A DNA stretch of 36,599 nucleotides, taken from a virus. The translations under genes and the position numbers were made by a program. Under the pieces are notes generated by a model, which saw nothing but the letters and a program-made list of their open reading frames with translations, did no database searches and had not been told where the DNA came from. Location: the IMG/VR virus record IMGVR_UViG_3300030117_003071, positions 1 through 36,599 of that record; one strand, 5' to 3'. Positions 23,341 to 30,803 of this stretch are shown in pieces (position 1 is the first letter of the stretch; each line of letters begins with the position of its first letter).

Positions 23341-23598
23341 ATGCAAAAGATTATTAATGTTATTAGTTTAATCTCTTTCCTTCTTGTTGTTTCTATTCTT
23401 GGCGGAGGAACTTATTCTTATTTTTGGCTAACAAATGAAGATAATCAAAAGATGATTAAAGAAAAACTAATGAAAGAGGTGACATCTTCTATTTCATTAC
23501 CTTCTCTTTCTGGCCCTGCCTTACCTACTGGAGCGTTAAGTCCTGCTCAGAAAAAGAACGAAAAGAAAAAGGCTGTAGGTGTCCCGTTTTCTCTGTAG
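23341..23598 (+). CDS. Small single-span membrane protein, 85 aa
   Basis: One transmembrane helix (residues 5-27, VISLISFLLVVSILGGGTYSY) precedes a charged helix (NQKMIKEKLMKEVTSS) and a Pro/Leu-rich tail. This plan resembles a small membrane protein I remember from marine cyanophages (KIINV start, TM, LP-rich C-terminus), whose function is unknown. Its location among fibre genes does not reveal a role; a cell-envelope target during infection is possible. Confidence 0.65.
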   Translation: MQKIINVISLISFLLVVSILGGGTYSYFWLTNEDNQKMIKEKLMKEVTSSISLPSLSGPALPTGALSPAQKKNEKKKAVGVPFSL

Positions 23599-25507: not shown

Positions 25508-27580
25508 ATGGCAAATACAATTAGGCACAAAAGAGGCACTAGTGACCCCAGTGCTTCGGACTTTTCTGCTACAGCAGAATTATTAGTTAATACGACTGAT
25601 GGTGGTTTATTTACAAAAAAGGATGATGGATCTGTTGTTGAAATAGGAGCTGGTGGAGGAGGCAGTACCACTTTATCTAGTGATGCACAAGGAAATACAA
25701 TAGGGGGAACAAACGCTGGTGATAGTTTCAGCGGCACATCTGCAGAAAAAAATACTCTGTTTGGATATAACGCAGGAACAGCCCTTGAAACTGGAGATGA
25801 GAATACTTTTTATGGATATGATGCAGGAAAGGTATGTACTTATCGACGTAATACTGCTATTGGATATAACGCAGGTATTGCTCTTGTTGACGGTCAACTA
25901 AATTCAATTTTAGGCTGGAAAGCGGCAGAATCTCTTACAACTGGTACGGGTAATACAATTGTTGGAGCCTACGAGGCTGGTAATAACATCACAACTGGAT
26001 CAAACAATATTGTATTAGGTCAGGCGTATGCAAACTCAACGGGTAGTAACAATATTGTCATAGGAAATGTTTCATTAATGAACTCTAGTGACTCTGAAAA
26101 TACTGTCATTGGAACTGGTGACATGTATTGTCAAAGTACTACTGGATCAATAGTTATAGGTCACGACGCTAGGCATGGACAAAGTGGTCCTGGTGGTGAT
26201 AATTGCATAACTTTAGGCTATACAAATATTACTCATTTCAGTATTCCTGGTATTAATTTTGAGTTAAAAGATAATGGTGGAGCCGCTACTAATGGTCAAG
26301 TATTAACTGCTGATAGTAATGGCTATGGGTATTGGGCTGATGCTGCGGGTGGTGGTGGTGGCGGATTGTCCAGTGATGCACAGCGAAATACAGTTGGTGG
26401 ATCTAATGCGGGTAATTCTTTTACAGGGACCGACGCAACAGATAACACTCTAATTGGATACGACGCTGGAACGGACATCACAACAGCAGACTATAACTCG
26501 TTTTACGGCTCATATGCTGGAGAAAATTGCACTACTGGTTCTTCGAATTGTGCGTACGGCTTTGAGGCTGGAGAAGCTTTAACTACAGGCCAGAAGAACG
26601 TTTTAATCGGACATGAGGCAGCAAGAGCGTCAACAGTGAATACAAATTGTGTTGCAATTGGTTATCAAGCTCTTAGAGATAATGTTGATGGAACTGAGGT
26701 TACCTGGCGTGGAAATGTTGCCATTGGTACGGAGGCTGGGCGTGGTTCTACAGCTTACAATAATACTTACGTTGGTTTTAAAGCAGGTCAATCACCTAGT
26801 GATGCATCAGGGCAAGTTTTTGTAGGGTATGAAGCAGGAGTATATAACCAAGGACACACAAACGTAGGTATTGGTTGGAAAGCCTTGGCAACGTATGGTC
26901 AACATTCTGATGGCGGTAGCTTTTCAAATGCTTACAACGTTGGGATTGGGAGGATGGCTGGATATGGGAGTAATGCAAGCGGTAGGTATAACGTCATGCT
27001 TGGCTTCCATACTATGTCTTCGAGGACTTCTGCAGATTCAGTCGTTGCTCTAGGGAAGGAAGCAGGCGATAGCATAACTACAGGTAGTGATAACGTCTTA
27101 ATTGGAGCTAATGCAGGATTTACAGGAACGAATAACCTTACCACTGGTTCAAATAATATTCTAATCGGACATGATGCAGCGGCTAGTTCGGCAACAGTTT
27201 CAAATGAAATAACACTTGGTGATAGCAATATTTCTAGCTTGCGTTGTCAAGTTCAAACGATTAGCTCTCTTTCTGATGAACGAGATAAAACACAAATAGA
27301 AGAATTACCTGTTGGGTTGGACTTTGTAAGTCAATTAAAACCTGTCAAGTTCAAATGGAAATCAAGAGAAGGTATAACAAAAGATGGGACAACTGAATCA
27401 GGTTTTATTGCTCAACAACTTCAAACAGCGCAAAAGGAAAATGACGCTGATTATTTAGGTTTAGTTTATGATAACGACCCTGAACGCCTGGAGGCTTCTT
27501 ACGGAAAGCTAATTCCCGTACTTTGCAAGGCGATACAAGAGCTTAAAATGGAAATTGAAACTCTTAAAAACAATGGCTGA
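25508..27580 (+). CDS. Large tail fibre with YadA-like repeats and S74 intramolecular chaperone
   Basis: The 690-residue protein has a fibre N-terminus (MANTIRHKRGTSDPSAS), then many repeats of the NT-IGYNAG / NNI-IG-DA type, as in trimeric autotransporter heads. The repeat region occurs twice, each opening with LSSDAQ-NT-GG-NAG (near residues 56 and 287). The C-terminus (DERDKTQIEELPVGLDFVSQ; LKPVKFKWKSREG; GFIAQQLQTA) is a peptidase S74 intramolecular chaperone that trimerises the fibre and then cleaves itself off, with the catalytic Ser at the start of the domain (LSDERDK). It overlaps the next gene by eight bases. Confidence 0.9.
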   Translation: MANTIRHKRGTSDPSASDFSATAELLVNTTDGGLFTKKDDGSVVEIGAGGGGSTTLSSDAQGNTIGGTNAGDSFSGTSAEKNTLFGYNAGTALETGDENTFYGYDAGKVCTYRRNTAIGYNAGIALVDGQLNSILGWKAAESLTTGTGNTIVGAYEAGNNITTGSNNIVLGQAYANSTGSNNIVIGNVSLMNSSDSENTVIGTGDMYCQSTTGSIVIGHDARHGQSGPGGDNCITLGYTNITHFSIPGINFELKDNGGAATNGQVLTADSNGYGYWADAAGGGGGGLSSDAQRNTVGGSNAGNSFTGTDATDNTLIGYDAGTDITTADYNSFYGSYAGENCTTGSSNCAYGFEAGEALTTGQKNVLIGHEAARASTVNTNCVAIGYQALRDNVDGTEVTWRGNVAIGTEAGRGSTAYNNTYVGFKAGQSPSDASGQVFVGYEAGVYNQGHTNVGIGWKALATYGQHSDGGSFSNAYNVGIGRMAGYGSNASGRYNVMLGFHTMSSRTSADSVVALGKEAGDSITTGSDNVLIGANAGFTGTNNLTTGSNNILIGHDAAASSATVSNEITLGDSNISSLRCQVQTISSLSDERDKTQIEELPVGLDFVSQLKPVKFKWKSREGITKDGTTESGFIAQQLQTAQKENDADYLGLVYDNDPERLEASYGKLIPVLCKAIQELKMEIETLKNNG

Positions 27581-27824: not shown

Positions 27825-28000
27825 TTAAAGATTTCGACGAATTTCTTATAATTAATAATAAGATCTACAAATGCGTGGGATCTATGGGGTCCATGCTTAA
27901 GAGTTGTCCTCATTGTGGGGATAAGTTTTTTACAAAAGAGCAACGTAAAATTTATTGTTCTGGTGCATGTAAGACGAGGGCTTATAGAGATAGAAATTGA
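27821..28000 (+). CDS. Small zinc-finger protein, 59 aa
   Basis: The gene starts in an ATGA overlap and ends in a TTGA overlap with the next gene. The protein contains CPHCGDKF and YCSGACKTRAYRDRN (residues 29-59), a treble-clef/FCS-like zinc finger that could bind nucleic acid or protein. No other domain is visible. It might regulate late expression or be a structural helper. The spacing of the four cysteines supports a real gene despite its size. Confidence 0.7.
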   Translation: MIKDFDEFLIINNKIYKCVGSMGSMLKSCPHCGDKFFTKEQRKIYCSGACKTRAYRDRN

Positions 28001-28671
28001 TTCCTAAAATTGAAATTCCTTCGATTGAAATCAAAACATATTTAATACAAGCACCTGTTGTTAATCCTCCAAACGTACCAATCAATGTACCGATAGGATT
28101 CCCAGTGATTGAAATGCCTTGTGTTAAAGCAAGGCGAGGTAATGAAAATGATGCTTTATTAAATAACGACCCAGATGGCAATTTGATTCTGTGTCCTGCA
28201 CAGACACCAAGTTATGAGCCTATGAATTACGAGCCTCATAAGCTTGTACCTATAAAAGAAGAAGAGCCTCAAAGATACGAAGAGCCAGAAATCCCTCCAG
28301 CAGCAGAAGTACCAGAAGCAACGCCAGAAGCGTGTCCTCCCGATGGTGCGCCTGAGATTGGAACAAAAGTAGAAGAAGGTACTAAACAGATTATTAAGTA
28401 TGAATTGGTAGGAAACCGTTGTGTAACTAGATATAAAAAATTAAATGTCCAACAACAGATAATTGATGCTATTCCTACAGTTCCTCAAGTTGTTAAAACT
28501 GGTTCAATAACGCTCGTAGCAACTACAGCAGCATTGTCAGCTCCACTGTTGTTGAAGACAATCAAGCCCATCATCAAGCAAATAGTAAAGAAGGTAAAGA
28601 AGCTACTAAAGAAAGATAAGGTGTTATCTATTTCTGAGAGGAGGAAGGCTCAGAGGGAGGCGAGGAAATAA
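27997..28671 (+). CDS. Pro-rich cyanophage-type protein with C-terminal membrane-like helix
   Basis: The 224-residue protein begins (TTG start, TTGA overlap) with IPKIEIPSIEIKTYLIQAPV and VNPPNVPINVPIGFPVIEMP, a Pro/Ile-rich N-terminus I recognise from marine cyanophages, where it is uncharacterised. It has cysteines (PCVKAR, ILCPAQ, EACPPDG, NRCVTRY), an acidic Pro-rich middle (EEPQRYEEPEIPPAAEVPEA), one hydrophobic segment (about 170-186, SITLVATTAALSAPLLL) and a Lys-rich tail. Membrane anchoring with a basic end is likely. Its 3' end overlaps the convergent gene by 44 bases. Confidence 0.7.
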   Translation: MIPKIEIPSIEIKTYLIQAPVVNPPNVPINVPIGFPVIEMPCVKARRGNENDALLNNDPDGNLILCPAQTPSYEPMNYEPHKLVPIKEEEPQRYEEPEIPPAAEVPEATPEACPPDGAPEIGTKVEEGTKQIIKYELVGNRCVTRYKKLNVQQQIIDAIPTVPQVVKTGSITLVATTAALSAPLLLKTIKPIIKQIVKKVKKLLKKDKVLSISERRKAQREARK

Positions 28672-29407
28672 GGTGTCGATGTGGTAAGACTTGGCCCATT
28701 TTAGGTTTCACTACGATGTCTTCACAGAGATTAAAGTAAGGAGAATCTGTGGCAAATTCAATTCCTTGTAGTTTTAATTTTCCACATTCACGTAATCTTG
28801 CTATATGCCAATCTAGTTTTTTATTATCAATTAGTTGCTGTTGATGTTCTCCTTGTAGCTTTGCATTTCTTAAACAACGCTCTTGAAATCTTTTATCAAG
28901 TGGCATGGAAAAAGTTAAACTTGCTCCGACATTAAGTGAGAAATTATCCTTGTGTCCTGTCCTTGTTCTTTGATGATATAAAATGTCTCCTTCGTCGCTG
29001 TAGACTGGGGAGTCGTACCAATATTCTCTAGGTTTTTGGAACGAATGTGAGTCAGTTATAAAAGGAGAAAATGTCAACATTGGTCCCTGACAAACAACAC
29101 CACCTCCATATTGGTTTTGTATAAGATTTCCTTGTAATGTCTGGATCGCCATATTAGTTAGCGATGCACTTGTATTTGCTACGGGGGCTGCTGTTTGTGA
29201 AGTATTAGCTAATGCGTTTGATCCACTAAATAATATTATTGCGAGAAAACTGAAGTAGTTTCTGTTGTGCTTTCTAGTATTGTTGTGCGGTTGATTGTTG
29301 TTACGTTCTGAAGACCAGGGCCAATGTAACTTTCTGCGTATTGAAACGCCTGACCTGGATTTGCAATCGTGACGTTTGGCTTCTGGTTTAAATCTGCTCC
29401 TGTCCAT
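28628..29407 (-). CDS. Exported cyanophage-type protein; start unclear
   Basis: From about residue 53 the protein shows a classic signal peptide: HNRNYFSFLAIILFSGSNALA, cleaved before NTSQ. The mature part (GVVCQGPMLTFSPFITDSHS; RTGHKDNFSLNVGASLTFSM; LDKRFQERCLRNAK; VLPHRHLI) resembles a family I recall from cyanophages, function unknown. The problem is the start: the only ATG is at 29407, giving an odd, very basic 50-residue N-extension inside the upstream gene (172-base overlap). The expected start, near 29290, has no ATG, GTG or TTG. A rare start codon, or frameshifting from the upstream gene near its stop, are alternatives. The last gene of a five-gene leftward cassette. Confidence 0.75.
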   Translation of the reverse strand: MDRSRFKPEAKRHDCKSRSGVSIRRKLHWPWSSERNNNQPHNNTRKHNRNYFSFLAIILFSGSNALANTSQTAAPVANTSASLTNMAIQTLQGNLIQNQYGGGVVCQGPMLTFSPFITDSHSFQKPREYWYDSPVYSDEGDILYHQRTRTGHKDNFSLNVGASLTFSMPLDKRFQERCLRNAKLQGEHQQQLIDNKKLDWHIARLRECGKLKLQGIEFATDSPYFNLCEDIVVKPKMGQVLPHRHLISSPPSEPSSSQK

Positions 29408-29661
29408 GTATAACTCGTTCCATTTATTGTTTCATTGATCGTTGTTGGTGGAGGTGAAAGAGTTGAGCCGTCAATAGAAAGATTCGTTCCATTGATCGTA
29501 TAAGTATGCCCAGTGTTGTAATCAGTAGAAACAATAGTTTCAGTGATGTTTTGTGTGGTCCGTGTAACGGCTGACATGGTTCCAGACGAGAAGTTTGGTA
29601 CGACGGGGACAGCATAAGAAGGTGTAAAAAAGAATAAAAATAATGATAAAAGGCTTTTCAT
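29236..29661 (-). CDS. Exported protein with signal peptide, 141 aa
   Basis: The N-terminus MKSLLSLFLFFFTPSYA is a signal peptide, cleaved before VPVVPN. The mature part is Thr/Asn-rich beta (TRTTQNITETIVSTDYNTGH; YTINGTNLSIDGSTL), with PGQAFQYAESYIGPGLQNVT. It resembles the exported protein encoded two genes upstream (29756-30256): both have T-NIT--T, Y-I/V-G-N and AF-(Y/F)-ES. It begins with a TAATG overlap behind the 31-residue peptide. No function known; likely acts in the periplasm or outer membrane. Confidence 0.75.
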   Translation of the reverse strand: MKSLLSLFLFFFTPSYAVPVVPNFSSGTMSAVTRTTQNITETIVSTDYNTGHTYTINGTNLSIDGSTLSPPPTTINETINGTSYTWTGADLNQKPNVTIANPGQAFQYAESYIGPGLQNVTTINRTTILESTTETTSVFSQ

Positions 29662-29756
29662 TATCTATGTATATCCATGTAGTGCTTCCACATTAAAAAA
29701 TTAAACCCAACAAGGATAACGACAGCAATAGCAGCAACAATAAGAGGAACGTGCAT
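29661..29756 (-). CDS. 31-aa single-helix membrane peptide
   Basis: MHVPLIVAAIAVVILVGFNF continues LMWKHYMDIHR: one transmembrane helix with a short charged C-terminus. Both ends are coupled by one-to-three-base TAATG overlaps with the exported-protein genes either side, exactly fitting the space between them. That fit, and the composition, argue strongly that it is expressed. It may be a holin-like, pinholin-like or scaffold peptide of the exported set; no homologue is recognised. Confidence 0.65.
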   Translation of the reverse strand: MHVPLIVAAIAVVILVGFNFLMWKHYMDIHR

Positions 29757-30256
29757 TACTTCACCGTCAGACTCGTTACTACTGAACCCACCGCAGAAGT
29801 GTTCGCCCCTCCAGCCGTAAGAGTCACAACTCCCGCAGAATTAATGGTCCCTGCGAGTGAACCTGCCACACCGCCCGACATCGTTAAAACTTCACCGTAC
29901 GCTGGCATGTCTGCCACCACACCTGAAGTCACATCAACTCCTGATCCTATTGGATTTGTAGCATCACCTTGAGTCCAACTTTCTGAGAAGGAGAAAGCCG
30001 ACCCAGCAGTATTCACGTCATACGCTCCGACATCAAGTGTTGCTGCTGTAGTAGCAGTACCAGCAGTTAACTTTCCGAAATGAGCATCAGTAGCAACTTT
30101 AATATTGGAACCTGAGACTGCATAAGTACTGCCTATACGGTTTGAATCTGTATAGGCTCCATTAACTGTCAACTGAGTTGAAGTTGTGATGTTATGTGTC
30201 ATATCTGCGTAAGCAGAAGGGGCTGCTAGGAATAGCAGCAAGAAAAGTTTCTTCAT
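29756..30256 (-). CDS. Exported beta-rich protein with signal peptide, 166 aa
   Basis: MKKLFLLLFLAAPSAYA is a clear signal peptide, cleaved before DMTHN. The mature part is Thr/Gly/Ala-rich (NITTSTQLTVNGAYTDSNRI; STYAVSGSNIKV; GSAFSFSESWTQGD), which suggests a secreted beta-sheet or repeat protein. This is a family I recall from marine cyanophages and cyanobacteria without known function. It overlaps the 2-TM protein gene by four bases and the 31-aa peptide by three. The DNA is relatively GC-rich in its 5' part on the plus strand, unlike neighbours. Confidence 0.75.
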   Translation of the reverse strand: MKKLFLLLFLAAPSAYADMTHNITTSTQLTVNGAYTDSNRIGSTYAVSGSNIKVATDAHFGKLTAGTATTAATLDVGAYDVNTAGSAFSFSESWTQGDATNPIGSGVDVTSGVVADMPAYGEVLTMSGGVAGSLAGTINSAGVVTLTAGGANTSAVGSVVTSLTVK

Positions 30257-30570
30257 GGGATCAATTTTCCACTTGGATCTACCTTCTTGCCTGTTATAGG
30301 ATCTATTCTGTCTTTGTTTGGTATAGGAGGAGCCTTTTGTGGCCCTATCTTACCGCCGCCATTCTTAGAAGGGGCAAGGCCAAATGCAGCTAAACTTCCA
30401 GAAAACACCGAAGCTATGAACGTGGGATCGAAATCAAGAATTTTCTGACCATTTGGCAAACGGACGTACGAAAAAGTTAACAGCGATGCGCTCCAAATCA
30501 ACACGATCAATTTGACTAAATCGCCAAGCCATTCGCGATCCTGTTCTTTTTTCTCTTCCTGTTCTTCCAT
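30253..30570 (-). CDS. Two-helix membrane protein, possible holin-like, 105 aa
   Basis: A charged N-terminus (MEEQEEKKEQDREWLGDLVK) leads to two hydrophobic segments (about 18-35 LVKLIVLIWSASLLTFSY and 50-66 FIASVFSGSLAAFGLA), then a Gly/Pro/Lys tail (KNGGGKIGPQKAPPIPNKDR). Size and topology fit holins, but no endolysin is nearby, so the lysis role is only inference. It is the first gene of the five-gene cassette of membrane/exported proteins, read from the divergent region 30571-30617. Confidence 0.65.
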   Translation of the reverse strand: MEEQEEKKEQDREWLGDLVKLIVLIWSASLLTFSYVRLPNGQKILDFDPTFIASVFSGSLAAFGLAPSKNGGGKIGPQKAPPIPNKDRIDPITGKKVDPSGKLIP

Positions 30571-30617: not shown

Positions 30618-30803
30618 ATGCCTCAAGAACTACTAGCAGCACTGATAGGGGCAGCTATTTCTGGAGCGTTAATGGTTTTAGCGAACCAAACGAACAAAAG
30701 GCAAAGAGATATACGTGAAATATTCCATCGTTTAAATGCTATTGATAAGGAAATTGCTACGCTTACGGCAAGACGTGACCCAAATGGATGGAGGAAAAGA
30801 TAG
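30618..30803 (+). CDS. Small membrane-anchored protein, 61 aa
   Basis: The N-terminus MPQELLAALIGAAISGALMV forms one membrane helix, and the rest (NKRQRDIREIFHRLNAIDKE) is a charged amphipathic helix. The plan resembles small cyanophage or phage proteins near lysis genes (spanin- or holin-like), but no lipobox or second helix is present. It is divergent from the exported cassette across a 47-base gap that contains GACTA-8-TAGTC (a weak inverted repeat). Confidence 0.6.
   Translation: MPQELLAALIGAAISGALMVLANQTNKRQRDIREIFHRLNAIDKEIATLTARRDPNGWRKR

Follow-up and report, generated by a model that had tools for sequence, protein, structure and literature searches.

Two-component spanins such as lambda Rz/Rz1 and T7 gp18.5/gp18.7 combine an inner-membrane anchor with an outer-membrane lipoprotein. 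The two proteins have conserved cysteines, and their genes are neighbours that overlap extensively in different frames and, in T7-like phages, lie near the tail fibre and terminase genes. A survey by Kongari et al. (2018; PMC6139136) listed 91 phages in which no spanin could be identified, including 20 from Prochlorococcus or Synechococcus, and suggested fragile outer membranes as the explanation for the spanin-less cyanophages. Genes of the cassette analyzed here are found in at least 11 phages named as spanin-less in that survey (P-SSP7, Syn9, S-RSM4, S-SM1, S-SM2, S-ShM2, S-SSM5, S-SSM7, P-SSM2, P-SSM4 and P-SSM7), and most of the carriers that were compared with the list are published as spanin-less. 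Syn5 and P60 are also on the list and do not contain the cassette. Judged from sequence and gene context, the cassette has a probability of roughly one half of being a host-envelope module that is expressed late and contributes to the lysis or release of marine cyanophages.

The analyzed stretch of DNA (the window) comprises 36.6 kb of a 39.3-kb virus record. The capsid and tail half of the window is related to the Prochlorococcus and Synechococcus siphoviruses MED4-184, MED4-117, KBS-S-2A and S-H1. The tail fibre genes, including an S74 tail fibre gene (25508–27580), are followed by the rightward gene 570 (27997–28671, plus strand), which faces a leftward unit in the order 721-564-31-mer-650-848. 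Genes are referred to by their PHROG family numbers. The leftward unit is encoded on the minus strand and starts with 721 (30253–30570; DUF6450/phrog_721), a 105-residue membrane protein with two helices and charged tails. It continues with 564 (29756–30256; phrog_564), a 166-residue signal-peptide protein of predicted beta type, the 31-residue single-helix peptide (31-mer; 29661–29756) and 650 (29236–29661; DUF6322/phrog_650), a 141-residue signal-peptide protein. The last gene, 848 (28628–29407; phrog_848/phrog_1755), encodes an exported protein of 259 residues and starts within 650 in the +2 frame. The successive overlaps along the unit are 4 nt (ATGA), 1 nt and 1 nt (both TAATG) and 172 nt (29236–29407), and 570 overlaps the end of 848 by 44 nt. 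Five minus-strand open reading frames at 28628–30570, with three tight junctions and a larger last overlap, had been described in a sequence-only reading of the window, and all of these features were recovered. Hydropathy analysis likewise reproduced the two helices of the first protein, the one helix of the 31-mer and a membrane-like helix in the convergent Pro-rich protein, which was placed near its C-terminus. The five genes and 570 form a genuine and conserved envelope cassette of late type.

Each cassette protein except the 31-mer, which has no family, matched a cyanophage PHROG or DUF family in profile searches (E values of 1e-32 to 1e-84). All of the families (phrog_721/DUF6450, phrog_564, phrog_650/DUF6322, phrog_848 and phrog_570) are annotated without function. 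No function was found for the cassette proteins in Pfam or NCBIfam, profile searches of PDB sequences gave nothing significant for 848, 650 and 564, and a limited literature search found no paper that gives these genes a function. The earlier proposal of an undescribed system is supported only in part, as the families already exist as DUF and PHROG entries without a function and include at least some long-known hypothetical genes of T4-like cyanophages.

The 721 family is small and contains two hydrophobic segments in 174 of 180 members (hydropathy threshold of 1.0). Its members, including the window protein, have the size and two-helix topology of class II holins and also share their charged tails; the likeness is one of topology, and no known holin family was matched by sequence. 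The positional counterpart in T7 is gp17.5, a class II holin. The exported nature of three proteins that had been proposed for the window extends to their families. Signal-peptide-like N-termini are found in 202 of 205 unique 650 members and 132 of 133 unique 564 members, and a strict AxA cleavage motif is present in 179 of 198 unique 848 sequences. In 848, a basic n-region of ∼50 residues precedes a short hydrophobic stretch, and this N-terminus appears more like a cleaved signal than the type II inner-membrane anchor of an i-spanin. The mature part of 848 contains four invariant cysteine residues. By comparison, 650 has almost no cysteine and ends in an invariant S-x-F-x-Q motif. The 650 and 564 proteins are divergent paralogues (hhalign probability of 96.5). 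The 570 protein contains 15% proline ahead of its C-terminal helix, and its tail has a median net charge of +14 across the family.

AF2 models of modest quality (pTM values of 0.42 and 0.47) present 650 with two very long beta strands of 23–24 residues and 848 with beta strands followed by a predicted 42-residue helix. Neither model had a significant match in the PDB. The weak Foldseek matches, the best of which were to beta-stem pores, flagellar rings and phage collar or tail proteins, were not accepted as evidence (best E value of 0.023 for 650; FlgH L-ring for 848, with an E value of 0.024 over 64 columns and a TM score of 0.2).

The 650/848 pair resembles two-component spanins in the features described above but differs in the proteins themselves. 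The gene overlap is similar to that of Rz/Rz1 without homology, both 650 and 848 appear to have cleavable-type signals, no lipoprotein is present, and the gene order and lengths differ. A lipobox-like motif is observed in 0 of 198 sequences of 848, 0 of 133 of 564 and 3 of 205 of 650. Because the lipobox is absent from 848 and 564 and almost absent from 650, the cassette does not encode a canonical o-spanin or u-spanin. A unimolecular spanin is also not found in 570, which has its helix at the C-terminus and no lipobox-like motif in any of 195 sequences. As a C-terminally anchored protein, 570 corresponds to one of the alternative i-spanin designs imagined by Kongari et al. (PMC6139136), although the N-terminal part of 570 has no export signal.

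The overlap between 650 and 848 is conserved. An open 848 frame, always in the same register relative to 650, is present in each of the 228 loci in which the pair could be interpreted, and the overlap length is nearly fixed within each group at 172 nt in siphoviruses, 166 nt in T4-like phages and 112 nt in most T7-like phages. When 650 was resampled synonymously, the 848 frame stayed open in ∼2% (siphovirus), 8% (T4-like) and 12% (T7-like) of cases. Suppression of synonymous sites in the overlap held only in T7-like loci and failed as proof of dual coding in the siphovirus and T4-like groups; dual coding therefore rests on the open-frame test. The annotated start of PSSP7_045, the 848 homologue of P-SSP7 (L004:38627-38783), appears to be placed ∼50 codons downstream of the true one, so that the signal region and the overlap with PSSP7_044 are hidden.

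Searches by tblastn with single proteins returned 395–455 phage records each for 564, 721, 848 and 650, all of them marine cyanophages or marine uncultured viruses by name, and 120 records for 570, which evolves faster. The carriers are T4-like myoviruses, T7-like podoviruses in two arrangements and MED4-184-type siphoviruses, which include the window. Viral-library matches of 848 with E values below 0.001 are cyanophage or uncultured-phage proteins where named. A bacterial origin was rejected, as the 14 genome-collection matches appear to be cyanophage contigs that ended up in MAG or SAG bins. Two contigs that encode 848, one of 188 kb filed under Nonlabens xiamenensis and one of 189 kb from a Prochlorococcus single cell (L254 and L257), have the size of a cyanomyovirus genome and are probably phage contigs inside host assemblies. 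The cassette is not a universal part of the T4-like core: 848, 650, 564 and 570 were not found in S-CREM2 or S-SZBM1, two phages with published virion proteomes that were scanned with all models up to the last 5.9 kb and the last 27.8 kb, respectively, and S-CREM2 contains only a weak 721-like match (E value of 7e-5).

Gene order was compared in three groups of IMG/VR loci, which were read with profiles built here: window-like loci (L011–L090, gathered with the 848 protein of the window and presumed to be siphoviruses), T4-like loci (L093–L172) and T7-like loci (L173–L252). In window-like loci, 721-564-(31-mer)-650-848 converges on 570. In T4-like loci, 564-650-848 faces an operon that comprises 721, PS, in many cases a gene for a 163-type protein, and 570. 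In P-SSP7-like loci, 570-721-650-848 run in one direction (65 of 80 loci, with the remaining loci mostly incomplete), and in the smaller T7-like phage P-SCSP1g, 721-650-848 converges on a 570-like gene. The order matches Syn9 gp161–gp167, S-PRM1 gp005–gp009 and MED4-184 CPAG_00006–00011. It is kept across unrelated cyanophages, with the 650/848 overlap and an adjacent or convergent 570, and conservation of gene order in relatives was a condition that the sequence-only reading had placed on its proposal. The invariant core consists of 721, the Pro-rich, C-terminally anchored 570 with its cationic tail and the exported overlapping pair 650/848. The 564 gene is missing from most T7-like cassettes, and the 31-mer is found in the cassettes of many, but not all, siphovirus relatives. 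The window has its own features: 721 heads the operon that includes 564, as it does in MED4-184, this operon has gained a 31-mer, PS is located elsewhere, and no 163 gene was found.

Two further small genes were noted. PS, a widespread cyanophage gene labelled 'plasmid stability' (Syn9 gp162; L006:7591-7854), encodes a small membrane protein with an N-terminal anchor and accompanies the cassette; no match supporting a plasmid role was found. The window copy (23341–23598, plus strand), an N-terminal helix with a short tail, is set among the tail-fibre genes and is displaced relative to T4-like phages. The 54–58-residue proteins of phrog_2738 are common to Syn5 gp48, MED4-184 CPAG_00012 and T7-like phages (L005:36665-36835, L007:6171-6335 and L238:5572-5748), where their genes adjoin the lysis slot or the cassette.

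In a tree of 848, the separation of the T7-like and T4-like groups is well supported, and that of the siphoviruses less so. The 721 protein of the window is 72% identical to that of the T4-like phage S-PRM1 and 49% to that of MED4-184, and its 564 protein is 72% identical to the T4-like copies of several single-cell marine viruses and 37% to that of MED4-184. Both proteins are also nearer to T4-like copies than to those of many window-like relatives. Alleles therefore seem to have been exchanged between virion types, an argument against any function bound to the structure of the virion.

In T4-like loci, the hexamer TAAATA occurs within 70 nt upstream of 564 in 57 of 68 loci (median position of −28) and upstream of 721 in 48 of 56 loci (median position of −27), compared with 104 of 4000 random segments; these counts take related loci as independent. 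In Syn9, TAAATA is located ∼30 nt before the start of 9 of 19 structural genes and 0 of 26 early or replication genes, a class assigned from annotation, and the exact hexamer is absent at the annotated starts of the Syn9 cassette genes. Because the element precedes both 564 and 721, both convergent arms of the cassette look late in T4-like phages.

In P-SSP7-like phages, 570-721-650-848 is located between the tail-fibre genes and the small terminase. In the T7-like phage P60, which lacks the cassette, the same interval contains an endolysin (phrog_181; E value of 2.8e-31) and two small membrane proteins, one of which has a coiled coil and is related to Syn5 gp47. KBS-S-2A, a siphovirus that likewise lacks the cassette, has a P60-homologous endolysin and small membrane genes after its tail fibres. 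This GH19-like endolysin region is comparable to the cassette in its place after the tail fibres and, in P60, directly before the small terminase, but it has no homology to the cassette. P60-type endolysins were found in 3 of 6 records counted as cassette-negative (the podovirus P60, the siphovirus KBS-S-2A and the myovirus S-CREM2) and 0 of 25 cassette-positive records, so that the two did not co-occur in any record examined (p = 0.004, ignoring relatedness, in a small and phylogenetically uneven sample in which P60 was scanned for the cassette except for its last 0.7 kb and S-SZBM1 except for 27.8 kb). Syn5 and S-H1 lack both the cassette and a P60-type endolysin. A GH24 lysozyme is encoded in 15 of the 50 T7-like cassette records searched, in all 15 on the same strand and 1.0–2.4 kb downstream of 848. 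Neither GH24 lysozyme nor P60-type endolysin was found in the T4-like and siphovirus carriers searched, and an endolysin next to the cassette is therefore seen only in some T7-like phages. The 39.3-kb record of the window was negative for both enzymes and for a GH19 domain, and no GH19 domain was found in the T4-like carriers searched. A 61-residue protein with a membrane segment and a predicted coiled coil is encoded divergently from 721 (30618–30803, plus strand) and is related to a KBS-S-2A gene (L008:5996-6241; E value of 3e-5). As the KBS-S-2A relative lies ∼0.4 kb before the endolysin, the 61-residue protein may be an additional lysis gene.

The late-promoter-like elements, the T7-like slot, the adjacent lysozyme and the exclusion of the P60-type endolysin favour a role in lysis or release. 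The late promoters and the slot also fit other late functions. A late envelope module could keep the cell intact, delay lysis or shed vesicles rather than rupture the outer membrane; this would suit the long latent periods of cyanophages (8 h for P-HM2; PMC5082946) and membrane proteins (721, 163, PS and 570) that have no assigned enzyme or pore role, but it does not by itself account for the replacement of the cassette, in the slot that it shares with them, by lysis genes that include an endolysin, and we regard it as unlikely. Superinfection exclusion or surface remodelling, in which the exported proteins would coat or alter the outer membrane and block adsorption of other phages, is a distinctly improbable reading. 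Three exported proteins, two of which are beta-rich paralogues, and a recent exchange of 564 and 721 alleles between siphoviruses and T4-like phages would fit such an arms race. However, exclusion is usually established early in infection, late-promoter-like elements precede both T4-like arms, and the core occupies the T7-like lysis slot in mutual exclusion with the P60-type endolysin. Of the outer-membrane roles proposed in the sequence-only reading, lysis and release therefore gained ground and superinfection exclusion lost it. That 650, 848, 564 and 570 are minor virion or assembly components with misleading signal-like N-termini is similarly improbable. Late-type promoters, the proximity to tail-fibre genes in the window and P-SSP7 and the 18 hypothetical proteins newly detected in S-SM1 virions (PMC3037559) speak for this reading. 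The occurrence of the same families in siphoviruses, myoviruses and podoviruses, whose particles have unrelated tails, the signal-like N-termini of nearly all 650 and 564 proteins, the AxA motif of most 848 proteins and the invariant cysteines of 848 speak against it.

Under a role in lysis or release, the best-supported assignments, which we infer, are a holin for 721 and outer-membrane disruption for 650, 848 and 570. The 721 protein would act as a holin-like protein in the inner membrane. The 650 and 848 proteins would be exported by Sec and reach their folded state in the oxidising periplasm, where 848 would form disulfides and its long helix and 650 its long beta strands. Together with 570 anchored in the inner membrane, they would disrupt the outer membrane, and the cassette would serve the function of a spanin while not belonging to that class. 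More tentatively, 650 and 848 might assemble at the outer membrane into a ring or pore with 570 as the inner-membrane partner, a lipoprotein-free and exchangeable system shared by several morphotypes.

A large part of the main photosynthetic organisms of the ocean is killed by cyanophages, and the cassette is the best candidate yet for the means by which marine cyanophages open the outer membrane. A conserved cassette for exported proteins, late-type and located in the lysis slot of spanin-less phages, provides named genes to test, and with such a role hundreds of records that now read 'plasmid stability' or 'hypothetical' would need new labels.
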